A DNA stretch of 64,000 nt, from contig NZ_JAQNDK010000001.1 of the NCBI RefSeq assembly GCF_028368935.1, positions 1,488,001 through 1,552,000 of the forward strand, given 5' to 3'. The position numbers and the translations under genes are program-made. This document shows, one piece after another, positions 10,661 through 49,949 of the stretch. Numbering within the stretch: the first letter of the stretch is position 1; the number at the start of each line of letters is the position of its first letter. Under the pieces are notes generated by a model. The model was not told where the DNA came from. It searched no databases and saw only the letters and a list, made by a program, of their open reading frames with translations. Source of the DNA: Sorangium aterium. Lineage in GTDB: Bacteria; Myxococcota_A; Polyangia; Polyangiales; Polyangiaceae.

Positions 10661-12877
10661 GTGAAGACACTCCTCATCGACAACTACGACTCGTACACCC
10701 ACATCCTCGGGCAGTACCTCTGGGAGGCGAGCGGCGAGGAGCCGATCATCGTCAGGAACGACAGCCTCTCGCTCGCCGAGATCGAGGGCCTGGAGCTCGA
10801 CGGCATCGTCATCTCGCCCGGCCCCGGCCGCCCGGAGCGCCGGGCCGATTTCGGCGTCTGCGCCGAGGTGATCGAGGCGCTCGCCGGGACGCCGATCCTC
10901 GGCGTCTGCCTTGGCCATCAGGGGCTCGCCGCGCGCTTCGGCGGGCGCGTCCAGCACGCCCCGCGGGTCATGCACGGCAAGATCGTCGAGATCGAGCACG
11001 ACGGCGCCGGGCTCTTCGAGGGCGTGCCCAGCCCGTTCCAGGCGGTGCGCTACCACTCGCTCATCGTCGGTGACGGCGGGCTGCCGGCGGAGATCCAGGT
11101 GACGGCGCGGACGCGCGGCGACCGGCTCATCATGGCCCTCAAGATCAAGGACCGGCCGTTCTACGGCGTGCAGTTTCACCCCGAGTCGATCGGCACCGAG
11201 CACGGCAGGAGGATCATCCGCAATTTCAGAGATATCGCCCTGAACACGCCGCGCGACCGGAGGCGCGCGGCGCTCCACCGGAGCGCACGCGCGCCGGGCC
11301 TCTCCGCAGGCGCGCTGGGCGGCTGCGCGCCAGGCGCGCCGGCGGGCGCGCGGCGACGCGGGCGCGTGCGTCACCTCCGGCTCCCGTGGGTCGATCCCGA
11401 GCGGGCCTTCGCCGGGCTCTTCGCCGCGGCCCCTTACGCGTTCTGGCTCGACTCGAGCGCGACAGGCCGTGACGGGCGCTTCTCGTTCATGGGGAGCGCG
11501 ACCGAGGCCATCGAGAGCCGCGGCGCCGCCGTGACGCGGTGGAGCGCCGGCGGCCCCGGAGACGCCCTTACCTCGACCACGTCCGAGGGGAGCCCGTTCG
11601 CCGCGCTCCGGCGGGAGCTGGCGTCGGTGTCGCTCGATCCCAGCGGCCTGCCCTTCCACTTCACGGGGGGCCTCGTGGGCTACCTCGGCTACGAGCTCAA
11701 GGAGCACCTCGGCTTCGGCGCGTCCGCCCACCCGCGCCGCGCGCTCCCGGACAGCGCGATGATGATCGCGCGGCGGATCCTGGCCTTCGACCACGTCGAG
11801 CGCGCGGTATACGCGTGCGCGATCGATGCAGTCGATGCGATCGACGCGATCGACGGCGACGAGCCTGCGAGGCCTGCGCCGCCCTCGTCCGCACCGTGGC
11901 TGGACGAGATCGCGGCGCGTCTGCACGATCTCCCGGCGCTCTCGGAGCCGCTCCTGCCGCCTGTCCCGGAGGGCTTCGCCGACCGGCTCACGCACGCACC
12001 GCGCCTCTCGCGCCGAGAGCACCTCGAGGCCATCGAGGCCATCCTCCGCGAGATCCGCGAGGGCGAGACGTACGAGGTGTGCCTCACGAACGAGTTCCTC
12101 GTGCCGACCTCGCTGGATCCGTTCGCCCTCTACCGCGTCCTGCGCCGCACGAACCCCGCGCAGTTCTCGGCCTTCCTCAAGCTGCCGGAGGGCGCGGTGC
12201 TGTCGTCCTCGCCGGAGCGATTCCTGTCGGTCGACCGGGAGCGGCGGGTGCGCAGCGAGCCCATCAAGGGGACGCGGCCGAAGGGCGCCACCGAGGAAGA
12301 GACCCTCGCCCTGCGCCGCGATCTCGCGAGCAGCGATAAGGACCGCTCCGAGCTCCTCATGATCACCGACCTCGTCCGCAACGACCTCAGCCGCGTCTGC
12401 GCCATGGGCTCGATCGACGTCGAGGCGCTCCAGCGGATCACCGAGCACGCGACCCTGCTCCAGCTCTCGTCGGTGGTCACGGGCGCGCTGCGCGAGGGGA
12501 AGGGCGCGCTCGACGCGATCGAGGCGTGTTTCCCCGGCGGATCCATCACCGGCGCGCCGAAGCACCGGACGATCTCGATCATCGACGCCCTGGAGCGGCG
12601 CACGCGGGGCGTGTACACGGGCTCGATCGGGTACCTCGCCTACGAGGGCCCCATGGACATGAACATCGCCATACGGACCCTCGTCGCCGACGGCCGGGGG
12701 CTCAGCTTCGGCAGCGGCGGCGCGGTGGTCGCGGAGTCCAGCGCGGAGGCCGAGTACGAGGAGGTCCTCGTCAAGAGCTTCCCCCTGCTCCGCGCCATCT
12801 ACCTCGCGGAGCGCGCCGCGGACGGGGGCCGGGCGTCCGCGCAAGAAGTGCGCGCGACGAGTGCGCACCGCGGATAA
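10661..12877 (+). CDS. pabAB: Aminodeoxychorismate synthase, PabA-PabB fusion
   Basis: The 738-residue protein starts at a GTG at 10661. Residues 1-195 are a class I glutamine amidotransferase with GVCLGHQG (Cys83) and QFHPES (His173, Glu175). A basic Ala/Gly linker (about 196-238) leads to a chorismate-binding synthase (240-715) carrying PIKGTRPKG (534-542), whose Lys536 is the PabB hallmark, then DLVRNDLSRVC, GGSITGAPK and GSGGAVVAESSAEAEY. It should make 4-amino-4-deoxychorismate from chorismate and glutamine for folate. A short AIDAVDAIDAID repeat (about 388-398) is inserted in the N-terminal part of the synthase. No lyase (PabC) is next to it. It lies 97 bp after the isochorismate synthase gene. 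Confidence 0.93.
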   Translation: MKTLLIDNYDSYTHILGQYLWEASGEEPIIVRNDSLSLAEIEGLELDGIVISPGPGRPERRADFGVCAEVIEALAGTPILGVCLGHQGLAARFGGRVQHAPRVMHGKIVEIEHDGAGLFEGVPSPFQAVRYHSLIVGDGGLPAEIQVTARTRGDRLIMALKIKDRPFYGVQFHPESIGTEHGRRIIRNFRDIALNTPRDRRRAALHRSARAPGLSAGALGGCAPGAPAGARRRGRVRHLRLPWVDPERAFAGLFAAAPYAFWLDSSATGRDGRFSFMGSATEAIESRGAAVTRWSAGGPGDALTSTTSEGSPFAALRRELASVSLDPSGLPFHFTGGLVGYLGYELKEHLGFGASAHPRRALPDSAMMIARRILAFDHVERAVYACAIDAVDAIDAIDGDEPARPAPPSSAPWLDEIAARLHDLPALSEPLLPPVPEGFADRLTHAPRLSRREHLEAIEAILREIREGETYEVCLTNEFLVPTSLDPFALYRVLRRTNPAQFSAFLKLPEGAVLSSSPERFLSVDRERRVRSEPIKGTRPKGATEEETLALRRDLASSDKDRSELLMITDLVRNDLSRVCAMGSIDVEALQRITEHATLLQLSSVVTGALREGKGALDAIEACFPGGSITGAPKHRTISIIDALERRTRGVYTGSIGYLAYEGPMDMNIAIRTLVADGRGLSFGSGGAVVAESSAEAEYEEVLVKSFPLLRAIYLAERAADGGRASAQEVRATSAHRG

Positions 12878-12966
12878 CGCGCCCGACGGAGACGTGCACG
12901 CGGCAAAGATGCTGGTACGGCGCGCATGCCGCACCGCGTATACTCATCGCATAAGGAGACGCGGTC

Positions 12967-15120
12967 GTGAAACGAGACAGCAACATTACGCGGAGAGGCG
13001 TCGCGGTGCGGCGGACGGTCGAGGACCTCGCCGTCGACGGCGCCATCCAGCCCATCGTCGAGGCGCTCGACAGCCACCTGGGCGTGGTCCTGGCGTCCAG
13101 CTACGAGGTCCCGGGCCGGTACACGCGCTGGGATATCGGCTTCATCGATCCGCCGCTCGTGCTCGTCTCCCGGGGCCGCGACTTCCGGTTCACCGCGCTG
13201 AACGAGCGCGGGCGCGTTCTGCTGCCGGCCATCGACGAGGCCCTCCGGGATCTCGACGCTGTCGCGGCCCTCGAGCGGCGCAGCGACGAGGTGGTCGGCG
13301 CGGTCCGTCCGCCGGGCGAGCGGGTGCCGGAGGAGCTGCGCAGCCGGCAGCCGTCCATCTTCTCGGTGCTGCGCCGGCTCATCGAGCTCTTCGGGGTCCC
13401 GGGCGACCCGCTCTTCGGGCTCTACGGCGCGTTCGCGTACGATCTCGCCTTCCAGTTCGAGCCCATCCGGCTCCGCCTGGAGCGCCCGGCGGATCAGCGG
13501 GATCTCGTCCTCTACCTCCCCGACGAGATCGTCGCCGTCGACCACCGCCGCGAGCGCGCGACGCGCACGCGCTACGAGCTGAAATTCGGAGATCGCTCGA
13601 CCGACGGGCTGCCGCGAGAGGGCGCGACGCGCGCCTATGTCGGCGCCGACCGCGCGCCCCAGAACGAGTACGCGCCGGGCGAGTACGCCGAGCTCGTCCG
13701 GGTGGCGCGCGAGTCCTTCAAGCGGGGCGATCTCTTCGAGGTCGTGCCGGGACAGACGCTCTACGAGCCGTGCCCGGTCGCGCCCACGGAGCTGTTTTAC
13801 CGCCTGCGCGAGCGCAACCCGGCGCCCTACGGCTTTTTGATGAACCTCGGCAACGCCGAGTATCTCATCGGCGCCTCGCCGGAGATGTACGTCCGCGTCG
13901 AGGGCAATCGCGTCGAGACCTGCCCCATCTCGGGCACGATCCCGCGCGGCAGCGACCCGCTCGCCGACGCCGCGCAGATCGCGCGCCTGCTCGCGTCCAC
14001 GAAGGACGAGTCGGAGCTCACCATGTGCACCGACGTCGATCGCAACGACAAGTCCCGCATCTGCGTGCCGGGGAGCGTGCGGGTGATCGGGCGCCGGCAG
14101 ATCGAGATGTACTCGCGGCTGATCCACACGGTCGATCACATCGAGGGCCGCCTGCGCGACGGCTACGACGCGCTCGACGCGTTCCTCGCGCACACGTGGG
14201 CGGTCACGGTCACGGGGGCGCCGAAGGCCTGGGCCATGCAGTTCATCGAGGATCACGAGCGCTCGCCGCGCGCGTGGTACGGGGCGGCGGTCGGGATCGT
14301 CGGCTTCGACGGCAGCATGAACACGGGGCTCACGCTGCGCACGATCCGGGTCAAGGACGGCGTGGCCCAGGTCCGGGTCGGCGCGACGCTGCTCTTCGAC
14401 TCCGATCCCGACGAGGAGGAGCGCGAGACCCAGGTGAAGGCGTCGGCGCTCCTCGACGCGATCCGGAGGCCGCGCGGCATCCCCACGCCGCCTCCGGCGG
14501 CCATCCACCCGGTGCCTGGCGGCACGCGCAAGGTCCTCCTCGTGGATCACCAGGACTCGTTCGTGCACACGCTGGCCAACTACCTCCGGCAGACGGGCGC
14601 CGAGGTGGTGACGCTCCGCGCCGGCTTCCCTCTCGAGGAGCTCGACGCCTACGCTCCCGATCTCGTGGTGCTCTCGCCCGGTCCTGGCACTCCGGGCGAT
14701 TTCGATCTCTCGGGCACGCTCGCGGCGCTGCTAGAGCGGCGGCTGCCCGTCTTCGGCGTCTGCCTCGGCCTGCAGGGCATGGTCGAGCACTTCGGCGGCA
14801 AGCTCGGCGTCCTCGACTACCCGATGCACGGCAAGGCCTCGAACGTGCGGGTGCTCGGCGGACGCCTCTTCGAGGGGCTGCCGCGCGAGTTCCGCGCGGG
14901 GCGCTACCACTCGCTCTACGCGTTGCGCGACGCGCTCCCTGCGTCGCTGAAGGTCACGGCCGAGACCGAGGATGGGGTCGTGATGGCGATCGAGCACACG
15001 GAGCTGCCGCTCGCGGCGGTTCAGTTCCATCCGGAGTCGATCCTGTCGCAGGACGACAACGTGGGGCTCCGGCTCGTGAGGAACGCGGTGACCGAGCTGC
15101 AGCGGAGCGGCGGGCGGTGA
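12967..15120 (+). CDS. trpE(G): Anthranilate synthase, TrpE-TrpG fusion
   Basis: The 717-residue enzyme would convert chorismate and glutamine to anthranilate, the first step to tryptophan. AAGGAG (12953-12958) stands 8 bases before the GTG, and TATACT at 12939 may be a -10 box. Residues about 1-505 are the synthase, with the rhizobial-type landmarks YEVPGRYTRWD, LYGAFAYDLAFQF, ETCPISGTIPRG (PISGT at 320-324) and TVTGAPK. Residues 522-717 are the amidotransferase, with GVCLGLQG (Cys599) and QFHPES. It resembles the single-chain TrpE(G) of rhizobia and Azospirillum along its whole length. I see no Trp-rich leader peptide upstream, so classic attenuation is not supported. Confidence 0.95.
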   Translation: MKRDSNITRRGVAVRRTVEDLAVDGAIQPIVEALDSHLGVVLASSYEVPGRYTRWDIGFIDPPLVLVSRGRDFRFTALNERGRVLLPAIDEALRDLDAVAALERRSDEVVGAVRPPGERVPEELRSRQPSIFSVLRRLIELFGVPGDPLFGLYGAFAYDLAFQFEPIRLRLERPADQRDLVLYLPDEIVAVDHRRERATRTRYELKFGDRSTDGLPREGATRAYVGADRAPQNEYAPGEYAELVRVARESFKRGDLFEVVPGQTLYEPCPVAPTELFYRLRERNPAPYGFLMNLGNAEYLIGASPEMYVRVEGNRVETCPISGTIPRGSDPLADAAQIARLLASTKDESELTMCTDVDRNDKSRICVPGSVRVIGRRQIEMYSRLIHTVDHIEGRLRDGYDALDAFLAHTWAVTVTGAPKAWAMQFIEDHERSPRAWYGAAVGIVGFDGSMNTGLTLRTIRVKDGVAQVRVGATLLFDSDPDEEERETQVKASALLDAIRRPRGIPTPPPAAIHPVPGGTRKVLLVDHQDSFVHTLANYLRQTGAEVVTLRAGFPLEELDAYAPDLVVLSPGPGTPGDFDLSGTLAALLERRLPVFGVCLGLQGMVEHFGGKLGVLDYPMHGKASNVRVLGGRLFEGLPREFRAGRYHSLYALRDALPASLKVTAETEDGVVMAIEHTELPLAAVQFHPESILSQDDNVGLRLVRNAVTELQRSGGR

Positions 15121-38554: not shown

Positions 38555-39550
38555 GTGCGAGCGCTGGTCTGGGACGGAACGGCCGCGCGCGTCATCGACC
38601 GCGAGCCCCCCTCGACCACGGCCGGCATGGCCGTGGTCGAGGTGCGGTGCGCCGGGATCTGCAACACGGATCTCGAAATTATCAACGGTTACATGGGCTT
38701 CCGCGGCACGCTGGGGCACGAGTTCGTCGGCGACGTCGTGGAGGGCCCGGCCGCCTGGCTCGGCCGCCGCGTGGTGGGCGAGATCAACTTCGCGTGCGGC
38801 CGCTGCGAGCTCTGCGCGCGCGGGCTGGGCAGGCACTGCCCGACGCGCACCGTCATGGGCATCGTCGGCGCCGACGGGGCGCTGGCGGAGCGCGTCGCGG
38901 TGCCCGTGGCGAACCTCCACGCCGTGGCCGACGGGGTCGACGACGAGGAGGCGGTCTTCGCGGAGCCGCTCGCGGCGGCGTTCGCGATCTTGGAGCAGGT
39001 GCGTGTGTCGCCGGGCACGTCGGCGCTCGTGTTCGGCGACGGGAAGCTCGGCCTGCTCATTGCGCAGGTGCTCCACCAGGCTGGCGCCCGCGTCCTCGCT
39101 GTCGGCAAGCACGAGGAGAAGCTCGCCCTGCTGCGCGCGCAGGGCATCGCGACCCAGCTCGCTCGCCCGGAGCCCTCGGGCCCGGCCGGCGCCGGCGCCT
39201 CCCCGCCTCAGGGCGCCTGGGCCGGAGATCCGGCCGAGCTGGTGGTCGAGGCCACCGGCACCGCCGAGGGGTTCGTGAGGGCGGTCCGCGCGACCCGGCC
39301 CAGGGGCACGCTCGTGCTCAAGAGCACGGTGGCCGGGCTCTCCAGCGTCCACCTCGCGGAGCTCGTCATCAACGAGATCACCGTCGTCGGGTCGCGCTGC
39401 GGGCTGTTCGGGCCAGCGCTGCGCGCCCTCGAGGCCCGGACCGTCGACGTCCGCCCCCTCGTGTCGGCGCGACTCCCGCTGGAGCGCGCCGCGGAGGCGC
39501 TGGCGGCCGCGGCGGCGCCTGGCGCCCTCAAGGTGCTCGTCACCTGCTGA
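38555..39550 (+). CDS. Zinc-binding medium-chain dehydrogenase
   Basis: The 331-residue protein starts at a GTG nine bases after gltD. It has a catalytic zinc site (Cys36 in GICNTD, His55-Glu56 in LGHEFVG) and a structural zinc site C-x2-C-x2-C-x7-C (Cys81, 84, 87, 95). The Rossmann motif is VFGDGKLGLLIAQVL. The family oxidises alcohols, sugar alcohols or threonine with NAD(P); the substrate is unclear. A Pro/Gly/Ala insertion at about 206-228 interrupts the nucleotide-binding domain. Its place directly behind gltBD suggests a shared transcript, not necessarily a shared pathway. Confidence 0.9.
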   Translation: MRALVWDGTAARVIDREPPSTTAGMAVVEVRCAGICNTDLEIINGYMGFRGTLGHEFVGDVVEGPAAWLGRRVVGEINFACGRCELCARGLGRHCPTRTVMGIVGADGALAERVAVPVANLHAVADGVDDEEAVFAEPLAAAFAILEQVRVSPGTSALVFGDGKLGLLIAQVLHQAGARVLAVGKHEEKLALLRAQGIATQLARPEPSGPAGAGASPPQGAWAGDPAELVVEATGTAEGFVRAVRATRPRGTLVLKSTVAGLSSVHLAELVINEITVVGSRCGLFGPALRALEARTVDVRPLVSARLPLERAAEALAAAAAPGALKVLVTC

Positions 39551-39710
39551 GCTCGGCGAGCTCGCCGCTCGCTGGCTGTCAGCGGCTCGTCCGGGTGGCC
39601 TGCGGCCATCGCGGCATGTCCGCCGAGCGGATTGCGTGAGAATTTCTCGCGGCTGGCCGGAATAGATCCTCCTAGGGAGCCGCAGGTCGCGGCCCCGATC
39701 AGGAGCTGCG

Positions 39711-40121
39711 ATGACCGCGAAGGACAGCCCACACCACGACGACCGCCGAGAGGACGCGCACGATGAGGCCCGGCGAGCCAGGGAGAGCTGGGAGCAGCAA
39801 CAGCTACGGGAGCTCGGCCTCGTCGGCATCGAAGAGGATGCGTCGACGTTTTGCCTTCATTGTCGCCGTGAGATGCTGGCGCAGCTCGCACGGGCCCAGG
39901 CGCGCGGCTCGGTGCTGTTCGAGCTCGTCAGGCGCGAAGGGCTGAGCCCTCTTCCGCTCCACGACCCCGGGTCCGCGGCCGAGGGCGGTCACACGGCGGG
40001 GTACCGGCGCGACCTCTGGGAGATCGCAATGCACAGGCGCCGCGCCCTGTGGATCTCCCTCGCAGGCCTCGCGATCGGCGCGCTGGTGCTCTGGGTGGCA
40101 CTCGTCCTCCTGAGGCGCTGA
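39711..40121 (+). CDS. Small C-terminally anchored membrane protein
   Basis: The 136-residue product starts at the ATG at 39711, with AGGAG six bases upstream. The N-terminal 45 residues are strongly charged and helical (DDRREDAHDEARRARESWEQ), followed by CLHC (48-51), which could bind metal or form a disulfide, and a single membrane segment near the C-terminus (about 112-133) ending LLRR. It is probably a tail-anchored inner-membrane protein facing the cytoplasm. I recognise no family. A palindrome GAGAA-T-TTCTC lies at 39638-39648 in the 160-bp gap before it. Confidence 0.7.
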   Translation: MTAKDSPHHDDRREDAHDEARRARESWEQQQLRELGLVGIEEDASTFCLHCRREMLAQLARAQARGSVLFELVRREGLSPLPLHDPGSAAEGGHTAGYRRDLWEIAMHRRRALWISLAGLAIGALVLWVALVLLRR

Positions 40122-40131
40122 GAGCGAGGAG

Positions 40132-40168
40132 CCGCTCGCGTCCGGATGGGATCCGGACAGGGGAGCGG
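40132..40168. terminator. Nested perfect hairpin between convergent genes
   Basis: GTCCGGAT (40140-40147) pairs with ATCCGGAC (40151-40158) around the loop GGG, and outside it CCGCTC (40132-40137) pairs with GAGCGG (40163-40168). It lies 11 bases after the small membrane protein stop and before the GRAS gene stop, so it probably terminates one or both transcripts. Confidence 0.65.
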
Positions 40169-40227
40169 TTGTTGATCGAGGGGCGCAGATTCGTGCGTTA
40201 GGGGCTCACCTGCGCTGTTCGGCGCTC

Positions 40228-41535
40228 CTAGCGGCGGAACAGCCCGGACATGAACCGCGATGGCGGCGGGAGCTGCCGTGGACGCCACGCCGACGCGGCG
40301 ACGAGGGACACGCCGTTGCGCATGAGCAGGATCGCGGGCTCGTCGCTCCGGACGTCGAACCCCTGGTTCAGGCGGAGCGCTCCGCGGACCAGCGACTCGT
40401 GCGGCGAGACGCGGAGCGGCTCGAAGCCGTTCATGCGGAGGCGGCGCTGCCAGGCGCCCCGGCGCTCGTGCCGCTCGACGCGCGCGGCCCCCTCGCCCAC
40501 CACCACATTCATCACCTCCTGCCCGAAGAAGACCTGCTCGATGGTCTCCCGCGCGGCGATGTGCGGCGGGAGCAGCGCTTCGAGCGCCTGGAATACCGCA
40601 TAGTAGTGGCCGATCGCCTCCGACAGCCGCGGGAGGAACTGGTGCGCGTTGTGCTCCACATCCGGCTCGACGAGCGTCAGCACGCGCGGCGACAGCGCGC
40701 GGATCCTCGTGAGGATGGTGTCGCGGTTCGCGGTGGCGTGCACCGAGGCATCCGGCACATGGTGCAATGCGAACGCCGCATTGACCGCAATGGGCGCCGT
40801 GGAGCGGGACGCGATACGGCTCCAGTCGACGCGCTCCACCGAGGACGCGACGCCGTGGAACTCGAAGGGGACCTTCAGCCGCTCCGCCCACCCCCCGATG
40901 AAGGCGCCCGCCCAGCGCAGCCGCTGCTCGGGATCGGGGCCCCGGCACGGCAGATCGATACCGGTCAGCCGGACCCGCGGCGGGCCGCCGGGCCGCGTCG
41001 CCAGCCGGTGTAGCAGGAATGGCCACTGCGTACCGCCGCCAACGCCGATGTCGATGACATGGATCTCCCCCTCGTCCTGGAACGCCTCGACGATGGCCGC
41101 GTTCGCGCTGAGGTAGCCGAACCGGATGAGCGGCGTCGCGTGCACGAGCAGCTGAAACGCCGCGAGCATGTCCCGCGGCCCGGCGCTGCGCAGGTACAGA
41201 TTCCCATCGCCGGAGCGATCTCCGTCCAGGCGGGCGAGCAGCGCCCTGCCAAACACGCCAGAAATGCGCTCGGACGCGTCCCCCGTATCGGGTTCGGCCC
41301 GCAGGATGCCCTCGATGAGGGCCCTCGCGCGCTCGCCATCCCCCGCGTCGATCGCCTCGCCCGCCGCGAGGAGGCGGCTCAGGAACGGGCGGCGACGCGA
41401 GTGGGTTTGGCGGGTTCCCGAGCTCGGCTGCTGCCCTGGGCTGGACGCGGTCGAGCTGGTGGGCCCCTCGATGTGCGCTCGTAGGCTAAGAGGCGCCTCT
41501 TCGGCCGATACTACGTGTCTACGGATCGCGTTCAT
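40228..41535 (-). CDS. GRAS-domain protein (bacterial homologue of the plant GRAS family)
   Basis: The 435-residue protein carries plant GRAS landmarks in order: a leucine-rich helical part (about 52-150, LLAAGEAIDAGDGERARALI), the VHIID-like motif IHVIDIGVGGGTQWPFLLHRL (read in two parts at 158-178), a second helical part (about 200-262, with AVNAAFALHHVPD), a PFYRE-like region (about 283-320, LTLVEPDVEHN) and a SAW region ending ERHERRGAWQRRLRMNGF and LVAASAW (355-417). GRAS folds are Rossmann methyltransferase-like, and bacterial members were proposed to bind or methylate small molecules. No DNA-binding domain is attached. A Ser/Pro-rich N-terminus of about 48 residues is unlikely to be structured. 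Exact substrate unknown. Confidence 0.85.
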   Translation of the reverse strand: MNAIRRHVVSAEEAPLSLRAHIEGPTSSTASSPGQQPSSGTRQTHSRRRPFLSRLLAAGEAIDAGDGERARALIEGILRAEPDTGDASERISGVFGRALLARLDGDRSGDGNLYLRSAGPRDMLAAFQLLVHATPLIRFGYLSANAAIVEAFQDEGEIHVIDIGVGGGTQWPFLLHRLATRPGGPPRVRLTGIDLPCRGPDPEQRLRWAGAFIGGWAERLKVPFEFHGVASSVERVDWSRIASRSTAPIAVNAAFALHHVPDASVHATANRDTILTRIRALSPRVLTLVEPDVEHNAHQFLPRLSEAIGHYYAVFQALEALLPPHIAARETIEQVFFGQEVMNVVVGEGAARVERHERRGAWQRRLRMNGFEPLRVSPHESLVRGALRLNQGFDVRSDEPAILLMRNGVSLVAASAWRPRQLPPPSRFMSGLFRR

Positions 41536-42497
41536 GGTGTCCAGGGCTGTTCAACCAGGCAGCCCGCCGTCCTGGCTGGGCTCTCCGCAGGCGGCCGATT
41601 TCAGGCGCGAACGCATGACGTCGACCACCTCGCAGGAGCCAGGGGTTTCAATGTTTGCAGATGTCGCTGAGGGAGAGCCCGACGGCGAGCAGGGAGCAGG
41701 CGCTCGGCGGCCGCGCGCCCGCGGCAAGGCCGCGAAGCGCAGCGCCCGCCCGTGACGCGACGGGGCCTGAGCTCGCACGGAGACCCGAGAGGCAACTCTC
41801 TGTACATCGATGAAGCCGCCCGCCCGGTCAAGTCCAAGATCGTCATTGTGCGTCGCGCGCCCGTCCTCGTGTTCCGCGCGCCGTCCGAGCCTGTCTTCTG
41901 GCGACAGACGTAGGCATTCGTAGGCGTCCCGCGAGGCGAGCGTGATCGCGCCGCAGGCGGAAGCCCGGCCGGCCCCGGCGCGCGCGGATCGCGCGGAGCG
42001 CGGCCTCGATGACGCAGGCCGCGCGCGACGCACGGGCCCGCGGGACACTTCACTGGTGGTCTCTTCAGGGCGCATCGTGGGCTCCGACCTGGCGAGCACG
42101 CGCCGGACTCGTCGAGTGGACCGTGGTCGTGACAGCACCTCGCTGGGGACGGGGCTTACACACCACATTACAACCCGCATAATCAGCTCTGTAAAGTCCC
42201 TATACATGGGCGCTCGGTCGATCGATCCCACGTTGCGTCGCCAGATGGAGGCAACCCTGCGACGATCGGGCGCTCCTTCGCCCGAGAAACAGCGCCGCGA
42301 GGGCCTTCAGGCCTTCGTAAGGAGCAGAGCGTTTGCTGGAGGTGATGTACGGAACGACCGCCCCCTCGGGCTCAGCAGCCTACGCCGGGAGTGACTTCGT
42401 CATCGCAACGCAGCCGGGTGACGAGCGCTCTCCAGCGACGCGGCGGCACCATTGACGCACTCCTGCACCTGTGCATGCGACGGCGGGCGCCAGCGGT
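41536..42497. other. 962-bp region without an assigned gene
   Basis: This follows the sigma54 activator and precedes the GRAS gene, both on the minus strand. Open frames on both strands have mixed codon use and I do not call them. At 42156-42183 TTACAC, 16 bases and CATAAT form a plausible + strand sigma70 promoter in an AT-rich island; 23 bases later a 62-codon frame opens (42206-42394, MGARSIDPTLRRQMEATLRR) with about 70 percent GC at third positions, well below its neighbours. It could be a small gene, an RNA or decayed DNA. Confidence 0.5.
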
Positions 42498-43886
42498 TCA
42501 GTCGTTATCGGACAGGTCGCTTCCCTCGGCGAAGTGGGAGCGATCGACGCCATTCTTCTCGAGCCAGCGTCGAATTCGATTCCTGTGCACTCCGAGCCTG
42601 ATGGCGGCGCGAGACACATTGCCTCGCTCGAGGCGAAGCGCCTCGGCGATCTCATCTTCGGGCGGCGCCTGTCCTGCGCGCGCCGGTCGAACATCGCTCG
42701 CCGTCGGCCGGGCGTGCGGCTCGAGCGCCTCCGGGCTCAGCCCGACGCCGGCGAGCGGGTCCAGATCCTTGGCCTCGACCGTGCGCCGCCCCTCGTCGAG
42801 CGCGCGCGTCACGGCGCGCCGCGCCTCGCCGACGAACTCGCGCAGATTCCCCGGCCAGCGGCGCATCGCACACGCGATGATCATTGAATGGTGAATCGTC
42901 GGCGACCCACTCTGAGCGGCCGCGCCGACCGCCTTTGCGCATTGCGCGAGCAGCCACGGGATCTCCTCGGTCCGCTCGCGGAGGGGCGGGAGCCGGACCT
43001 CGGGCCGGCCGATACGGTAGTAGAGATCATCCCGGAAGCGGCCCTGGGCGACGCGGGCGCGGAGGTCGTGTGTCGCCGCGCAGATCCGGATTTGCACCGG
43101 GCGAGGCGCGACCGCGCCGAGCTCAAGGACCTGCCGGGTGTCGATCGTCCGCAGCAGCTTCGCCTGGACCGCCGCGTCGAGCTCCGCCACCTCGTCGAGG
43201 AAGAGCGTGCCTCCGTGGGCGGCCTGCACATAGCCGTCGGTGTCGTGCGTCGCGCCGGAGTAAGCGCCGCGCCTGGCGCCGAAGAGGAGCCGCTCCGCCA
43301 GGCCCTCCGGGATGGCCGCGCAGTTGACGGCGACGAACGGGCCGCGCGCCTGCGGCCCCGCCTCGTGGTAGGCGCGCGCCGCGAGCTCCTTGCCCGTGCC
43401 GCTCTCGCCCGTCACGAGGAGGCTGTCTCCCGCGGCCGCGGCGCGGATGATCGTGTCGTAAATCAGCTGCAGCCTCGGCCCGAGGACGCTCTCTTTCTCG
43501 ACGCGCACGCCCCCGCGCGCGAAGCTCCGGATGTCGCTGAGCGCAAGGAACACCGACGTCCCCGCGCCGACGACCTGGATCGCGTCCCTCCGCACCTCGC
43601 CGCGGATCGGCTCGCCGTTGACCGACGTCCCGTTGGTGCTGCCGAGGTCCTCCACGGTCCAAGCGCCGCCGTCGTACGCGATGCGGGCGTGTCGTCGCGA
43701 CATGAGCGAGTCGTCCATGAGGGGCACGCCGCCGACGCCTCCGCGACCCACCACCACGGAGCCACGATCCAGCGGGATCGGAGCGCAGCGCGGCTGATCC
43801 CCCGAGAAGATCAGGACGATGCCGGGAACGGGCTCGGCGACCGAGGGCTCCGGTGAAACCGAGACGCGGACGGTGGAGTGGTCCAT
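42498..43886 (-). CDS. FHA-domain sigma54-dependent transcription activator
   Basis: The 462-residue regulator has an N-terminal FHA domain (about 24-118: VVVGRGG, SRRHARI, LGSTNGTSVNG), which binds phosphothreonine and so links it to Ser/Thr kinases. The AAA+ domain follows: Walker A GESGTGKE (160-167), Walker B GGTLFLDE (225-232) and RFRDDLYYRI. The sigma54-contact loop reads GAYSGA (207-212) in place of GAFTGA. A Fis-type helix-turn-helix closes the protein (about 415-452, NVSRAAIRLGVHRNRIRRWL). It is divergent from the gene at 44093 across 206 bp that hold a sigma54-type promoter, which may be its target. Confidence 0.94.
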   Translation of the reverse strand: MDHSTVRVSVSPEPSVAEPVPGIVLIFSGDQPRCAPIPLDRGSVVVGRGGVGGVPLMDDSLMSRRHARIAYDGGAWTVEDLGSTNGTSVNGEPIRGEVRRDAIQVVGAGTSVFLALSDIRSFARGGVRVEKESVLGPRLQLIYDTIIRAAAAGDSLLVTGESGTGKELAARAYHEAGPQARGPFVAVNCAAIPEGLAERLLFGARRGAYSGATHDTDGYVQAAHGGTLFLDEVAELDAAVQAKLLRTIDTRQVLELGAVAPRPVQIRICAATHDLRARVAQGRFRDDLYYRIGRPEVRLPPLRERTEEIPWLLAQCAKAVGAAAQSGSPTIHHSMIIACAMRRWPGNLREFVGEARRAVTRALDEGRRTVEAKDLDPLAGVGLSPEALEPHARPTASDVRPARAGQAPPEDEIAEALRLERGNVSRAAIRLGVHRNRIRRWLEKNGVDRSHFAEGSDLSDND

Positions 43887-43914
43887 CGGGCACAATCTTA
43901 CCCGTTGAAGAACC

Positions 43915-43935
43915 TGGCCGGCCAGTGGCCGGCCA
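43915..43935. promoter_or_regulatory. Paired palindromes, candidate activator binding sites
   Basis: The 10-bp perfect palindrome TGGCCGGCCA occurs twice (43915-43924 and 43926-43935), centres 11 bp apart, that is one helical turn. The pair lies 29-49 bp in front of the activator gene (43886) and about 96-116 bp upstream of the predicted sigma54 start near 44031, the usual place for enhancer sites. Confidence 0.45.
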
Positions 43936-44004
43936 TCCCAACGGCCCGCGAACGCTCTCTGGGCAGAACTCCCAGCAAATCCATGTCGCCCCGTTCGCCA
44001 GGTT

Positions 44005-44020
44005 CGGCACAAGTTGTGCT
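44005..44020 (+). promoter_or_regulatory. Sigma54-type -24/-12 promoter
   Basis: CGGCACA-AGTT-GTGCT matches 9 of 12 fixed positions of TGGCACGNNNNTTGCW, with the invariant GG and GC correctly spaced. Predicted start near 44031, 62 bases before the ATG at 44093. The core GCACAAGTTGTGC is also a perfect palindrome, so it could instead be an operator. Confidence 0.5.
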
Positions 44021-44092
44021 TGTTCCCTCGGCATGGTGGCCTCTGCAAGAGCTCGCATCCATCGGGACCGGGGGTCCGCCCTCGAGGTGAAC

Positions 44093-44740
44093 ATGGGATC
44101 CGGCCGCAACATCGAGGAGGCGAGCCGCCGCTCGTCCCGGCGTCTGCACACATCCCGCACCCTGCCGAGCCTCCCCTCCCACCCCGGTCTCCAGAGCATC
44201 AGCGGCCTCCGCGGCGCGCTCGAGTTCCTCGAGTGGCCGGCGTCCGAGTGGACGCCCAAGGACCTCCAGGACTGGTTCGTGGACCACCTGGTGACCCCGG
44301 GCCTGATGAAGCGCCCCCAGATCGTGCGCGAGCCCGGCGCGACGCCCGTCATGCTCGATCCCCGGGCCGACGGCAGCAGCAACCTCGAGGAGCTCATCCA
44401 CAAGGCCCGCGGGCGCGTCATCACGGCCCTGCGGGGGCTGATCGCGCCCGTCGCCGACGATCGATTCCTGAACGCGGCGATCTACGGGGGCAGGGTCCGC
44501 CGGGCGGCGGTCGGCGGCCGTCCCGTCTGGGTCGCCTCGCCGCGCGAGATCGACTTCCTCGGTGACATTGTGCTCAGCTTGCTCGCCGCCGACATCCTGC
44601 TCGACCGGGAGTTCTATCGCGCACACCTGTGCATCTGCGAGGTGTGCGGAAGGGTGTCATTCAAGGAGACCGCGGACGCGCGAGGCGTATGCAGCGAGCA
44701 TCGGAGCAGTGTGTCCGGGTTTACGCCGCGGGTGCGCTGA
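44093..44740 (+). CDS. Unknown protein with a C-terminal Cys/His cluster
   Basis: The 215-residue product starts at the ATG at 44093, with GAGGTGA about 5 bases upstream. Residues 1-35 are basic and Ser/Arg-rich; 35-175 are mixed helical (GALEFLEWPASEWTPKDLQD, later VLSLLAADILLDREFYRAHL). The C-terminus has Cys180, Cys182, Cys185, Cys200 and His203 (CICEVCGRV, GVCSEH), probably a zinc-binding knuckle. There is no signal peptide. I recognise no family. It is divergent from the FHA-sigma54 activator and preceded by a -24/-12 element, so it is the prime candidate target of that regulator. Confidence 0.72.
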   Translation: MGSGRNIEEASRRSSRRLHTSRTLPSLPSHPGLQSISGLRGALEFLEWPASEWTPKDLQDWFVDHLVTPGLMKRPQIVREPGATPVMLDPRADGSSNLEELIHKARGRVITALRGLIAPVADDRFLNAAIYGGRVRRAAVGGRPVWVASPREIDFLGDIVLSLLAADILLDREFYRAHLCICEVCGRVSFKETADARGVCSEHRSSVSGFTPRVR

Positions 44741-44775
44741 GCGCCTGCGGCGGAGCCGTGATGCTCGTGACGATA

Positions 44776-44799
44776 AAGGCCGGCTGAAGAGCCGGCCTT
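44776..44799. terminator. Strong intrinsic-type terminator hairpin
   Basis: AAGGCCGGCT (44776-44785) and AGCCGGCCTT (44790-44799) form a perfect 10-bp stem with the tetraloop GAAG, between two convergent genes. It should work for the + strand gene ending at 44740 and, being symmetrical, for the minus-strand Ton operon. Confidence 0.8.
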
Positions 44800-44868
44800 C
44801 GTCATTTCTCTCGCCACGGATCCGGTCCGCCCACCGCGTCGCGGAGGGCCGGCGCGGACGGCGCGGCG

Positions 44869-46296
44869 TCAGTTCGCGTCGAACGAGACCCAGGCGCCCG
44901 TCGCCCAGGTGTCATCGGCCTTGAAGGCGCCGATGTACTTCGCCTCCGGGTCGAAGAAGCCGTCATCCGGCGGGGTCGCCGCGTTCTCGGTGAGCGTGGC
45001 CTCGGGCCGGAAGTCGGGCGTGGCGGCGAAGCAGTCGGCGAGCCCAGGATCATCGGTGCTGTTGGTCGCCTCGTCCCCGAACCACGCGACCTCGTCCGCG
45101 CCAGCGTCGTCGTCGTCGTCGAGCTTCGACTCGGTCGCCGCCTCGGTATCCGTCTCTTCGTAGGCGATGTTCTCCTCGATGTTGCCGAAGAAGATCGAGC
45201 TCGCGAGCTCGACCTCGGTGAGCTCGTTACGCAGATCCACCCCCGCCTCGAAGCCGGTCACGATGGTGTTGAAGATGTGGGCCTTCGTCGAGCGGCGGAG
45301 CAGCATGCCGTACTGCTGCTTGTCGACCTCCTTGTTCTTGCCGCACAGGGTCGCGTTGTAGATCGTCGGCTCGCTGAGGGGCGTGTTGGCCGACGAATCG
45401 GCGTCGTTGTCGCCCTCGAAGCCGTTCGTCTCGTCGGCGACGGACGGGTCCTGCTGGAGCGCGAGGAACTGGAGCTTGCCGGTGTAGCCGAGATCCCAGT
45501 CGAAGCCGTCGTCGCCGTTCTGCGCGCAGATGAGGTGCTTCGCGTTGACGGTGCCGCCGAAGAACTCGAAGCAATCGTCGAGCGTGTGGTGCACCATCAC
45601 GTGATCGACGGTCGTCCCGGAGCCGACGCCGGCGAAGGTGAGGCCGTTGACCTCGTTGTCCTGAGAGAGGAGGATCCCGCTGTACTCGATGCGCACGTAC
45701 TCGAGGACACCGCTGTTGTCCGCGGGCTTGTCGCCGCCGTACTCCGTGCCTTCGCCGGTGATGCCCTCGACGTTGGCCTTGCCGCCTTCCACGTTGACGG
45801 GCGCCTCGCCGAGCAGGATGACGCCGCCCCAGTCGCCGGCGGCGCGATCGCCCGCCTCGCCCTGGCTCGTGAACACGATGGGCTTGCTCGCCGTGCCCTT
45901 GGCGTTGATCTTGGCGCCGGGCTTCACGACGAGCGTGGCGAGGCTCACCTTCTCGCCCATGATCGTCGTGCCGGGCTCGATGGTCAGGGTCGCGCCGCGC
46001 TCGACGAAGATGATCCCCTTCATGAGGTAGCACTTGTCGGCGGTCCACTTCGTGCTGGCGGTGATCGCCTCGCTGACCTCCACCGGGGAGGAGCAATCGG
46101 CGCTGACGTCGCCACCACCACCTCCGTCGCCACCGCCGCCACCGCCGCCACCGCCACCGTCACCGCCGCTAGCGGAGCTGCTCGCGGACGAGGTGCCGGT
46201 CGAGGACGGGGAGATCGAGTCGTCATCGCCGCACGCGGCGAACGCCGCGACGGACAGCGCCGAGGCGCAAACCAAGCCCAATTTGAATGTACGCAA
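44869..46296 (-). CDS. Surface lipoprotein, right-handed beta-helix type
   Basis: The start is a TTG at 46296 supported by a strong AGGAGGT nine bases upstream. The signal peptide ends AAFAAC (Cys22), so it is a lipoprotein. A Ser/Gly linker (about 28-62) with a 19-residue Gly-rich tract separates the anchor from a repetitive domain (about 70-460) of beta-helix character: ATLTIEPGTTIMGEK, VLEYVRIEYSGIL, VDHVMVHHTLDDCFEFFGG. It is the last gene of the Ton operon, 80 bp behind the receptor gene, and probably binds or presents the receptor's substrate at the cell surface. The Asp-rich DDDDD stretch near residue 396 suggests cation binding. Confidence 0.85.
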   Translation of the reverse strand: MRTFKLGLVCASALSVAAFAACGDDDSISPSSTGTSSASSSASGGDGGGGGGGGGGDGGGGGDVSADCSSPVEVSEAITASTKWTADKCYLMKGIIFVERGATLTIEPGTTIMGEKVSLATLVVKPGAKINAKGTASKPIVFTSQGEAGDRAAGDWGGVILLGEAPVNVEGGKANVEGITGEGTEYGGDKPADNSGVLEYVRIEYSGILLSQDNEVNGLTFAGVGSGTTVDHVMVHHTLDDCFEFFGGTVNAKHLICAQNGDDGFDWDLGYTGKLQFLALQQDPSVADETNGFEGDNDADSSANTPLSEPTIYNATLCGKNKEVDKQQYGMLLRRSTKAHIFNTIVTGFEAGVDLRNELTEVELASSIFFGNIEENIAYEETDTEAATESKLDDDDDAGADEVAWFGDEATNSTDDPGLADCFAATPDFRPEATLTENAATPPDDGFFDPEAKYIGAFKADDTWATGAWVSFDAN

Positions 46297-46376: not shown

Positions 46377-49313
46377 TCAGTAGGTGAACGCAGCGCTCAA
46401 CGTCACAGTCGTCCCAACGCTGTACTGGCTGGCGATCTTGTCCTCATCGCCGTCGCTCCCCTTGGTGACGCGGATGGGCGCATTGATGAGGTTCTCGCCG
46501 GCCAGCTTCAGCTCGATGTGCTCGCCGAGGCGCTGGGCCAGGGTCAAGTCGATCTGGTGCCGCGGCTGCTCGTACTCGTCCTCCAGCCCCTTGCGACCCA
46601 CCCGCTTGAGCCGGGCGCCGAACACGTTGTAGAGGAGCCGGGCGCTCGTGCCGGTCGACTCGCTGGCATAATCGAGCCCCAGGTTCACCACGAAGGGGGA
46701 TTGCCCCTGGAGCGGGTGCGTCGGGGTGCTCTCGATGGTGACCCCTCCCTCGTTGTCGTCGGGATCGATCGTCACTTCCGACTGCACGAACGTGAGGTTT
46801 CCGAGCGCCGTGACCTCCTTCAGGAGCGGGGTGATGAAGCCCAGGCCCTTCCTGAGCTCGAGCTCGACCCCGGCGACATAACCGGCTTCGCCGTTCACGT
46901 AGCTGAGCCTGCCCCTGCCGCCGTTCGGGAAGATGATCTCCTCGATCGGATCCTGGAAGTGCTTGTAAAAGACGCTGACCGCGGCCACCTCGCCGGCCGT
47001 CGGGAAGATCTCGAAGCGGAGATCGGCGTTCACGACGCTCGTCCGCCCGAGTTCCGGATTGCCTTCCGCCTCCATCCCGCTGTATCCCTCCTGATACAAG
47101 GTCGGGCTGAGCTCGCGGAGCTGGGGTCGGGCCAGCGTCCTGGACACGCCGAGCCTGACATTCGAGATCGAGCTCGCCTTGACGATGACGTTGGCCGCAG
47201 GCAAGAGATCGACGTTATCGCTCTCGGCCCTCCTCTCGGGGCTCGCCGGGGAGTACCTGTCGAACGCCCTCAGCGACAGCGTGGAGGCCTCGATCCGGGC
47301 GCCGAGCACCGCGCGGAGCCATCGTGTGATCGACGCGTCCGTCATCACGTAACCGGCGTAGAGATCGCTGTTCGCCGTGTAGGAGTCGGTCTCTCGCGTG
47401 ATCTCCTCCAGCTCGAGCGCCGTACCGATGTTCTCGTCCGAGAACAGCTGACCCGGCTCCTGGCGGAGGATCGTCGGATCCGAGCCCGGGCGCTGCTTGA
47501 ACCGGAACCGACGCGCGTTGAACTCGCGCTCTCGGAGGTTGAACAGACCGCCCAGCTTCAGCCGGGTCGGAGTGTCCCCACGGACGAGAGGCTGGGTATA
47601 GGAGAGCTGCCCGCCGTAGTTCACGTCGGTCATGTCGCTGAAGAAGTGGGCGCCGCTCAGCGTGCCCTCGTCCCACGAGAAGGCTCCGCTCGTATCGTCC
47701 CTGATGTAGACGGTCTCTCTCGTATCGGGCTCGTCCGAGGACGCGCCGGAGATGGACGCCTTCCAGTCGAGGGTGCCGCCGTCCAGCGCTCCGAAGCGGT
47801 GCTCTCCCTGGAGCTGACCCAAGGTGAGGGCGCGGGAGATGAACCGCTGCTGTGTATCGCGAAACGCGCTGCTGCCGTCCAGAGGGTTCCCGCTGACCTC
47901 GCTGGCCAGGTCCTCCGACGAGCGGCTGTGGAGCCCGGTGATCGTCACCTTGTGGTTCTGATCGGGGTTGTAGGTGGCGCTGGCGAAGGCGCCCCAGGAC
48001 ACCTGATCACGGATGCTTCCGGTGCTGGTGTCGGCGTTGGGTATGGGCTCGCCGCCCAGAGGATCGGGGTCGAATTTCCTCGTGCGCTCTTCAGCGCGCG
48101 GAGCGAACTTCCGGCCATAGCTCAGGGTGGCGATGTAACCGAGGCGCTGCTCGCCGCCGAGCTTCAGGGTGTCGCCAACGACCACGCTGCCGCTCCCGTT
48201 CGGCGGGGTGAATGACCGTGTCGTCACCATCGACGAGTTGATCGCCCGCCCGTAGGCCGTCATCTCGTCCCTCGTGATGGTGCCGCCGCCCGGCTTGCGG
48301 CCGAGTCGCAACACCTTGTAGTCGGGGATCTCGCTGGGAAGCGCGCGCGCGCCGCCGTCGATCCCGAGCCAGTCGGTGCCCGATCCGGCGTAGGTCAGCC
48401 GATCACGGAACGTCGCCTGGCTGTTCAGCCCGAGCGACAGCGATGCCTGGAAGAGGAACTTCGTCGGGAGCTCGCGTGTGTTGATCTGGACCGAGCCGCC
48501 CGCGAAGTCGCCGGGGAGATCGGGCGTGAACGTCTTGACGACGGTGATGTCGCTGAGGACCAGCGACGGAAAGAGATCCAGCGGGACGGCCTGCCGGTCG
48601 GGCTCGGGGCTCGGCAGGGGGGCGCCGTTCAGGAGCGCGTTCGTGTAGCGCTCGCCCAGGCCACGGACGTAGACGTACCTGTTGTCGACCACGGTCGCGC
48701 CGACGATGCGCTTCGCGGCCTCGGCGGCGTTGCGATCGGGCGTCTTCGCGATCTCCTTCGCGCCGATGGCGTCGCCCACGTGGGCCGCGTTCTTCCGGAT
48801 GAGCAGCTGCGCCGCGACGCTCGCCCGCTCCGGCTCGAACTCGACCTCGATGACCTCCTCTGTCTGCTGATCGGGATCGAGGCCGACATCGACCTGGACC
48901 ACCTGCCCGGCGGTCACCCGTACGTCCTGCACGCGCTGCGGCTTGTGCGCCTCGTACCAGACCCGCAGCTGATGGGTGCCCGGCGGGAGCTCCAGGCGAT
49001 ACCGCCCGTCGAGGTCCGCGATCGCCTTGAGCTTCGTCCCCACGACGGACACCTGGGCGTCGAGCAAGGGCTCTCTCGTGGCGGTGTCGGTGACGACGCC
49101 CCACACCACGCCTTTCCCCGCGGGCGGCGGGCGCGACGGGCTCGGCTCATCGAGCCCCGCGACGTCCTCCGCCGCAGGGCCGCCGGCCTGATGCGCCGCG
49201 CCGTCCGGCTGCGGCGCAGCGGCTCCGGGGTCGCCCTGCGCGAAGGCCGTGGCCCCCCAGCAAAGCGGTGTCACCAGCGCTGCGACTACCCCCGAGATCC
49301 TTCTGCGACTCAT
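46377..49313 (-). CDS. TonB-dependent outer-membrane receptor with N-terminal CarboxypepD_reg domain
   Basis: The 978-residue protein has a signal peptide (cleavage near residue 25, ATAFA), a carboxypeptidase-regulatory beta-sandwich (about 62-150, VWGVVTDTATREPLLDAQVS), a plug domain (KEIAKTPDRNAAEAAKRIVG, YVYVRGLGERYTNALLNG, GDFAGGSVQINTRELP) and a beta-barrel ending in an aromatic residue (LSAAFTY). The plug pattern matches the family that takes up complex organic ligands, not the classic siderophore receptors, but the ligand cannot be read. It is encoded with its own TonB-ExbB-ExbD genes and with the beta-helix lipoprotein. Confidence 0.93.
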   Translation of the reverse strand: MSRRRISGVVAALVTPLCWGATAFAQGDPGAAAPQPDGAAHQAGGPAAEDVAGLDEPSPSRPPPAGKGVVWGVVTDTATREPLLDAQVSVVGTKLKAIADLDGRYRLELPPGTHQLRVWYEAHKPQRVQDVRVTAGQVVQVDVGLDPDQQTEEVIEVEFEPERASVAAQLLIRKNAAHVGDAIGAKEIAKTPDRNAAEAAKRIVGATVVDNRYVYVRGLGERYTNALLNGAPLPSPEPDRQAVPLDLFPSLVLSDITVVKTFTPDLPGDFAGGSVQINTRELPTKFLFQASLSLGLNSQATFRDRLTYAGSGTDWLGIDGGARALPSEIPDYKVLRLGRKPGGGTITRDEMTAYGRAINSSMVTTRSFTPPNGSGSVVVGDTLKLGGEQRLGYIATLSYGRKFAPRAEERTRKFDPDPLGGEPIPNADTSTGSIRDQVSWGAFASATYNPDQNHKVTITGLHSRSSEDLASEVSGNPLDGSSAFRDTQQRFISRALTLGQLQGEHRFGALDGGTLDWKASISGASSDEPDTRETVYIRDDTSGAFSWDEGTLSGAHFFSDMTDVNYGGQLSYTQPLVRGDTPTRLKLGGLFNLREREFNARRFRFKQRPGSDPTILRQEPGQLFSDENIGTALELEEITRETDSYTANSDLYAGYVMTDASITRWLRAVLGARIEASTLSLRAFDRYSPASPERRAESDNVDLLPAANVIVKASSISNVRLGVSRTLARPQLRELSPTLYQEGYSGMEAEGNPELGRTSVVNADLRFEIFPTAGEVAAVSVFYKHFQDPIEEIIFPNGGRGRLSYVNGEAGYVAGVELELRKGLGFITPLLKEVTALGNLTFVQSEVTIDPDDNEGGVTIESTPTHPLQGQSPFVVNLGLDYASESTGTSARLLYNVFGARLKRVGRKGLEDEYEQPRHQIDLTLAQRLGEHIELKLAGENLINAPIRVTKGSDGDEDKIASQYSVGTTVTLSAAFTY

Positions 49314-49511
49314 GCACCTGTCCCTTCGCGCGCTCCGAGCCCGGGCGCGACTCTCGATTCGATGGCCGGGCGCACGCGCGCCCGTCTGATGAGGAGAGCG
49401 CAGGGCCGACTCGCGCCCTCTCCCGTGCACCCCGCCGCGCTCGCGCGCTCGAGCGACGCGGCGGCGGCTCCCGCGCGCCTCGACTTCACCTCATCGGGCC
49501 TGTGCCCTGGC

Positions 49512-49949
49512 TCAGCGCGCGGGCTTCTCCGTCAGGACGGCGATCGTCTTGGCCCCGCCCATGCGCGCGGCGTCCATGGCCTCGACGGCGACCGCGTAGA
49601 CGGCCTCGTCCTCCGCGTCGAAGTAAAGAACGTTGTCCGAGCGCGCCGCGAAGATGCGCGCGAGCCGCTCCTTCAGCTCGCCGCGCTGCACCTCGGCCTG
49701 GTTGATGCGGAGGACGCCGCGCTGATCCACCGTGAGCACCACGGGCTTGTCGGCGTCGACGGGAGGCGGCGCGAGCTTCGCTGTGTCGTCCTTCTTGGGC
49801 AGATTCAGCCAGAACTGCTTGGCGAGCAGCGGCGTCACGACCATGAAGATGATGAGGAGCACGAGCACCACGTCGACGAGCGGCGTCACGTTCATGCTCG
49901 GCGCGACACCGCCCTTCTTGCCCCCACCCTGCGGAACGCTCATCCCCAT
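49512..49949 (-). CDS. ExbD/TolR-family proton-channel subunit (second copy)
   Basis: The 145-residue inner-membrane protein has a cytoplasmic head, one membrane segment with the essential Asp (MNVTPLVDVVLVLLIIFMVV) and a periplasmic domain (about 55-145). Together with ExbB it converts proton flow into TonB movement. It starts four bases after the first ExbD gene ends. The two ExbD copies share the membrane segment but their periplasmic parts differ strongly, which suggests different partners or a heteromeric channel. About 200 bp separate it from the receptor gene. Confidence 0.93.
   Translation of the reverse strand: MGMSVPQGGGKKGGVAPSMNVTPLVDVVLVLLIIFMVVTPLLAKQFWLNLPKKDDTAKLAPPPVDADKPVVLTVDQRGVLRINQAEVQRGELKERLARIFAARSDNVLYFDAEDEAVYAVAVEAMDAARMGGAKTIAVLTEKPAR

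Follow-up and report, generated by a model that had tools for sequence, protein, structure and literature searches.

A gene of Sorangium aterium encodes a GRAS-family protein that groups with the plant GRAS regulators but outside the plant clade, and that retains the complete signature of an S-adenosylmethionine (SAM) site. Since this site is intact and the plant motifs are kept, the gene unites motifs of the plant type with a site of the enzyme type, and it is notable because it stands beside the plant branch with its cofactor signature preserved. We propose, with a probability of roughly 0.6, that this GRAS protein of a rare plant-like type methylates small molecules as a class I (Rossmann-fold), SAM-dependent enzyme, a prediction from sequence comparison. 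Bacterial GRAS proteins as such are already known; the additions made here are the grouping of this gene and of two further genes from myxobacteria with the plants, the contrast in the SAM signature between bacterial and plant rows, the overlap of GRAS with an aminotransferase gene in the two relatives, and the operon in which the main other bacterial clade lies. The gene lies in a 64,000-nucleotide stretch of DNA, which as a whole is referred to as the window.

Family membership and cofactor signature

Translation of 40228-41535 on the plus strand gives two stops, and the reading frame of the gene lies on the minus strand. The gene and the parts of its product that are discussed below are as follows:

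40228..41535, minus strand: gene of the GRAS-family protein, 435 aa, ATG start
40282..41379, minus strand: GRAS domain match, residues 53-418, profile positions 3-374 of 374
41023..41064, minus strand: VHIID equivalent IHVIDIGVGGGTQW, residues 158-171, which is also methyltransferase motif I, D-x-G-x-G-x-G
40954..40956, minus strand: D194, the acid that ends strand beta-2 (motif II), D/E in 33/33 bacterial rows and 0/7 plant rows
40759..40767, minus strand: LHH, residues 257-259 within VNAAFALHHV, a bacterial signature close to where motif IV is expected
40450..40482, minus strand: RVERHERRGAW, residues 352-362, the RVER/PFYRE region, from the alignment
40285..40293, minus strand: SAW motif, residues 415-417, from the alignment with plant rows

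The sequence-only reading had assigned the gene to the GRAS family, with a search against the Pfam GRAS profile (PF03514) as its check and with the lack of a GRAS match, or a better match to an ordinary methyltransferase family, as grounds for giving it up. In this search, the window protein matches PF03514 well over the cut-off of 27 (E = 7.5e-89, 298.7 bits), end-to-end over positions 3-374 of 374, GRAS being the only Pfam family to reach E ≤ 1. The protein is thus a GRAS-family member far beyond chance, and an ordinary methyltransferase is ruled out by the lack of any competing Pfam family at that threshold. The best result of an NCBIfam search was a meaningless match (E = 0.052). Of the 16 distinct PDB chain sequences with E ≤ 1 among the matches listed, 15 belong to plant GRAS proteins, SCARECROW being the best (E = 2.3e-48). 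The gene is the single GRAS match of its own 13.47-Mb genome, and none of 14 control genomes gave a GRAS match.

The motifs VHIID, RVER/PFYRE and SAW make up the GRAS motif list as quoted in an excerpt of PMC4279901. The three motifs that had been singled out in the window protein are all present, namely IHVIDIGVGGGTQW at residues 158-171, ERHERRGAW at 354-362 and LVAASAW at 411-417, and the motif order is kept, with IHVID (158-162), RVERHE (352-357) and SAW (415-417) aligned with the plant rows. The two regions that had been read as leucine-rich helical parts also align over their length with these rows. Against plant GRAS proteins (SCARECROW, SHORT-ROOT, DELLA, SCL3, SCL7, NSP1 and NSP2), the whole domain can be aligned, including G-x-Q-W, the RVER region and SAW; the window protein differs from them in that its domain is preceded by only some 50 residues, and Pfam finds no added DNA-binding domain. 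Among five Sorangium copies, dN/dS is 0.09-0.26, which is purifying selection, and the gene has a GC content of 71.3%, the window one of 71.1%, which together indicate a constrained gene of native composition. An AlphaFold2 model of the protein, built from five near-identical sequences, reached a mean pLDDT of 35.9, too low for the model to be used.

In class I methyltransferases, the acid after beta-2 is expected to hold the ribose of SAM. Motif I (D/E-x-G-x-G-x-G) and this acid occur together in all 33 bacterial rows of our alignment and in none of the seven plant rows, which derive from the PDB and are a biased plant sample; part of the loop persists in plants (G164 in 3/7 rows, G168 in 5/7). 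The window protein has both elements by which a class I methyltransferase is recognized, and, with motif I and the acid intact, it does not share the degenerate SAM motifs that are typical of plant GRAS proteins. The SAM-type site is a feature that the window protein has in common with the other bacterial GRAS proteins compared. An excerpt of PMC5873383 describes plant GRAS domains as having a SAM-methyltransferase fold with a large cavity, a comparison made there with fatty acid O-methyltransferase, and as lacking the SAM motifs and binding neither SAM nor SAH by isothermal titration calorimetry (ITC). The presence of motif I and the acid in bacteria and their joint absence from the plant rows fit this result.

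Other positions separate a plant-like type among the bacteria. W171 of G-x-Q-W is found in 5/5 plant-like bacterial rows (three lineages), in 0/28 other bacterial rows and in 7/7 plants. For S415 of SAW, the counts are 4/5, 0/28 and 7/7, and for W417, they are 4/5, 1/28 and 7/7, respectively. Hence both G-x-Q-W and the S of SAW are missing from the 28 bacterial rows that are not plant-like, whereas the window protein has both. Further positions are shared more widely: E290 and W362 are kept in 40/40 rows, R352 in all 33 bacterial and five of seven plant rows, H258 in all 33 bacterial and four of seven plant rows, and H259 in 32/33 and 4/7.

Occurrence and position beside the plants

All six Sorangium genomes listed, the gene's own and five more, carry a GRAS gene, one copy being cut by a contig end, and no Sorangium genome without it appeared among the matches listed. 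The close Sorangium relatives of the window protein are 89-95% identical to it, and the gene is also present in named Sorangium strains whose genomes are complete. That bacterial members are rare, as the sequence-only reading held, fits our samples, which overlap and all lie within the phylum Myxococcota: GRAS matches were found in 19/183 genomes of the order, 30/317 of the class, 5/57 of the class of genome G273 and 17/377 of an even sample of the phylum. Outside chromosomes, a plasmid search gave relatives at E ≤ 1 in two Skermanella records only, and viral contigs gave none, either with the single protein or with a 10-row alignment. The five full Sorangium copies score 286-299 bits against the profile, compared with 45.7-163.4 bits in bacterial members that are not plant-like. 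Apart from five Sorangium genomes, only G365 and G273 combined more than 200 bits with a match to or near the end of the profile (3-374, 3-374 and 14-370). The other bacterial matches nearly always end near profile position 330, with L031 (363) and L036 (368) as exceptions, whereas that of the window protein extends to 374.

A tree was calculated from 40 rows (33 bacterial, of which 32 are from Myxococcota and one is from Skermanella, and seven plant) and 368 columns under LG+C20+F+G4 with PMSF; it contains no algal or bryophyte sequence and has long branches to the plants and to Sorangium. The seven plant rows form one clade (100/100), with Sorangium as their sister (89/81). Plants, Sorangium and the rows L028 (G273) and L029 (G365) form a group with support of 99/96, and the other 28 bacterial rows fall outside. 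When long rows were taken out and the columns were filtered differently, the larger group received 92/94 and 97/92, and the grouping of plants with Sorangium 85/79 and 95/86. The order within the group is less firm, as placing Sorangium, L028 and L029 in one bacterial clade beside the plants (p-AU 0.35), or L028 and L029 nearer to the plants than Sorangium (p-AU 0.34), is also compatible with the data; grouping the plants with bacterial clade B was marginally rejected (p-AU 0.039, log-likelihood lower by 13.6). Over trimmed columns, the identity of the window protein to plant GRAS proteins is 24-33%, with 32.9% to SCARECROW, and the two other myxobacterial lineages of the plant-like type are 40-41% identical to the Sorangium protein. 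The distributions of W171 and S415 agree with the tree, both positions being also columns of it. An excerpt of PMC12448838 reports one bacterial GRAS subgroup that is monophyletic with plants and has plant motifs, and the group of Sorangium, L028 and L029 may well be this subgroup.

The profile score, unusually high for a bacterial member, could suggest that a plant GRAS gene was transferred into Sorangium. We consider this highly improbable, and a recent transfer from plants is ruled out by the tree: the plants form their own clade without Sorangium, and all four trees constrained to put Sorangium among the plants were rejected (p-AU 4.6e-05, 4.5e-05, 1.1e-07 and 2.7e-05, the first two constraints being near-equivalent). 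The SAM motifs missing from all seven plant rows are, moreover, intact in Sorangium, two further myxobacterial lineages share the plant-like type, and the GC content of the gene is that of its surroundings.

Gene neighbourhoods

Twelve neighbour and GRAS queries were run against the window and a further 36 loci, of which 35 have a GRAS gene and one, L083, does not. In clade A of the bacterial GRAS genes, an operon of five genes was found in 19/19 loci examined (18 tree rows and the fragment L017), always on one strand and in one order, with gaps of at most 123 bp between matches: GRAS, a protein of 173-178 aa termed u178, a SpoIIE-type phosphatase, a DUF6272 protein and a 135-aa protein resembling STAS, SiaC or slr1659. 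Examples are:

L050:5511-9047: clade A operon
L054:6017-9473: clade A operon
L055:6724-10396: clade A operon; 16 more loci have the same arrangement

The phosphatase reaches 96.8-99.0 bits for SpoIIE in three copies (cut-off 25), its match in L053 being in two pieces, and the DUF6272 protein reaches 28.8 bits (cut-off 26.6). In the 135-aa protein, STAS_2 and SiaC stay below the cut-off, one of three copies being without a family, and four copies of u178 gave no Pfam family at E ≤ 1, with no NCBIfam family at E ≤ 0.01 in the one copy searched. These neighbours resemble the SiaABC system, the phosphatase being weakly SiaA-like; however, SiaA (68.5 bits, cut-off 700) and SiaB (20.7, cut-off 85) score far below their NCBIfam cut-offs, slr1658 and slr1659 also stay below theirs, and the GRAS protein and u178 are additional. 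In clade B, a convergent SpoIIAA-like (STAS-type) gene adjoins GRAS in 4/4 loci examined (L052, L056, L062 and L072), with 25.2 bits in Pfam for the L052 copy (cut-off 25). Neither arrangement is found within the stretch read at L038, L051, L059, L063, L066 and L067. A kinase match lies within the stretch in 12 of the 35 GRAS loci. At L055:10469-13746 and L060:9528-12769, a second, divergent GRAS gene directly follows the serine/threonine kinase that comes after the GRAS operon.

The operon of SpoIIE, SiaB-like and STAS genes is absent beside the window gene, from 17-kb stretches around four Sorangium orthologues and from the loci of the two plant-like relatives. A SpoIIE phosphatase-DUF6272-STAS set without GRAS and u178 is instead encoded elsewhere in Sorangium, at C4:1373270-1374943 (within L083, G000:C4:1364000-1382000), where a GRAS part may have been lost or replaced, or may never have been present.

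The two plant-like relatives have a different partner. With ATG starts taken, a HisC-type aminotransferase gene precedes GRAS with a 4-base overlap in G273 (locus L049), and follows it with a 1-base overlap in G365 (locus L048); the pairing thus occurs in opposite gene order in two families. Against TIGR01141 (cut-off 276.55), the two HisC-type proteins score 313.5 and 291.6 bits. Because the G273 and G365 genomes hold so few HisC-type matches at E ≤ 1e-20 (three and two), a chance overlap with GRAS is unlikely by a rough estimate. Among 15 HisC-type proteins compared, the copies linked to GRAS do not cluster as a separate clade and so give no sign of a specialised partner; they could be the ordinary histidinol-phosphate transaminases of these genomes. 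No HisC-type gene stands beside GRAS at the window locus or at the four orthologous Sorangium loci. A third HisC-type gene lies downstream of the clade A operon in L050.

The surroundings of the window gene contain the following features:

42498..44153, minus strand: FHA-domain sigma-54 activator (Pfam FHA and Sigma54_activat), a conserved neighbour in Sorangium
41536..42497, minus strand: upstream intergenic region, with blocks conserved in five Sorangium genomes by genome comparison
39711..40121, plus strand: convergent small protein of 136 aa, with no family over the cut-off and no evidence of a link to GRAS

The sigma-54 regulator that the sequence-only reading had placed in the flank is real, and it adjoins GRAS in the five Sorangium loci that include this flank (the window and L023-L026). 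The suggested link to the GRAS gene, by contrast, comes down to proximity: the two genes are about 960 bp apart, and the exact sequence TGGC-N7-TGC does not occur on the coding strand upstream of GRAS in any of the five loci. The intervening region has no convincing gene, and its conserved blocks are possibly a promoter or RNA region; an Rfam search over 39500-44900 gave no RNA match. About 3.7 kb from the GRAS gene of G365, the stretch L048:13362-13550 gave a match (E 8e-12) with the FHA sigma-54 activator of Sorangium as query; this is probably an FHA domain and maybe a chance occurrence, such domains being common.

Function and the origin of the plant regulators

We favour a methyltransferase because the site is intact and constrained and because an aminotransferase gene accompanies GRAS in the nearest relatives. 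SAM would be held by D194 and the loop D162-x-G164-x-G166-x-G168, with the substrate in a cavity beneath the helical cap, and the methyl group would be passed to a metabolite which, in the relatives, the HisC-type aminotransferase handles; SAM binding, catalysis and the class of substrate are what we infer here from conservation and gene order. Zhang, Iyer and Aravind reportedly predicted a small-molecule methylase activity for bacterial GRAS proteins in 2012. With class I SAM small-molecule methyltransferases, the window protein shares motif I and the acid after beta-2; it differs from them in matching no Pfam family other than GRAS, and in having, by homology, the GRAS helical cap and C-terminal part. 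The earlier suggestion that the protein may sense or modify a small molecule holds up as a prediction, given the SAM signature and the HisC-type genes beside two relatives. As a whole, the sequence-only reading is partly supported, being right on the family, unproven on the function and unsupported on the sigma-54 link; it had missed that the gene falls with the plants yet keeps a SAM motif which the plant rows do not have.

Against an enzyme counts the absence of an aminotransferase neighbour in Sorangium. Most other bacterial GRAS loci read, moreover, lie in a signalling rather than a metabolic operon, which points to a sensory or regulatory role, and a SAM loop may be conserved for binding SAM as a signal, with no reaction being catalysed. 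The partner-switching type of operon around the main other bacterial GRAS clade gives rise to the main rival of a methyltransferase, namely that bacterial GRAS proteins, including the window protein, are SAM- or ligand-binding signalling parts that feed phosphatase, kinase and STAS partner-switching, with no or incidental catalysis. This would explain the invariant gene order of clade A and the convergent SpoIIAA-like gene of clade B, and to a small degree the kinase matches, which weigh little because myxobacteria are rich in kinases. However, no such operon contains the window gene, any of its four Sorangium orthologues or either of the two plant-like relatives, and Sorangium keeps its SpoIIE-DUF6272-STAS module elsewhere without GRAS, so that we regard a signalling role as rather unlikely. 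It appears improbable that the window protein is a catalytically dead regulator like plant GRAS proteins, which would make protein contacts through its helical cap and alpha/beta groove, perhaps acting on the FHA sigma-54 activator. The plant-type motifs including SAW, the identity to SCARECROW and the activator as a neighbour in five Sorangium loci are consistent with such a role, whereas the SAM signature is fully kept, unlike in the seven plant rows, no DNA-binding domain has been added, and the activator is distant, with no exact sigma-54 type match upstream of GRAS.

If the window protein is a methyltransferase, an origin of the plant regulators can be sketched, which is tentative and, taken as a whole, possible rather than probable. 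Plant GRAS proteins would descend from a myxobacterial SAM methyltransferase type, of which the Sorangium gene would be the closest living relative, and this descent is likewise something that we infer. The ancestor may have worked with a HisC-type aminotransferase on an amino-acid-derived small molecule (aromatic or imidazole); other bacterial GRAS branches would have been wired into phosphatase/STAS partner-switching, and, in plants, the SAM loop would have been lost, with the cavity and cap retained as a protein-binding platform. If true, an enzyme was turned into regulators of root development, gibberellin response and symbiosis. According to excerpts of PMC9942845 and PMC12448838, plant GRAS genes are thought to be derived from soil bacteria, and an excerpt of PMC9667741 cites Cheng 2019 for GRAS and has Sorangium only as a donor of other genes. 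Within the literature collection searched, no paper was found on the function of the donor protein, and, by title and abstract opening, none of the papers listed deals with GRAS proteins of myxobacteria or with a partner-switching operon that includes GRAS. With its plant motif set and cofactor signature, the window gene makes the ancestral role of the plant regulators testable, and it raises the question of whether these regulators started out as methyltransferases or in signalling. The operon of GRAS, SpoIIE, DUF6272 and STAS-like genes, in turn, is a concrete pathway in which to search for the role of bacterial GRAS proteins.

Apart from the GRAS locus, the window contains, at 10661-15120, two adjacent genes that each encode a chorismate-binding enzyme fused to a glutamine amidotransferase, in opposite domain order, and, at 46377-49949, a TonB-dependent-receptor-like protein with a carboxypeptidase regulatory domain, which adjoins ExbD.
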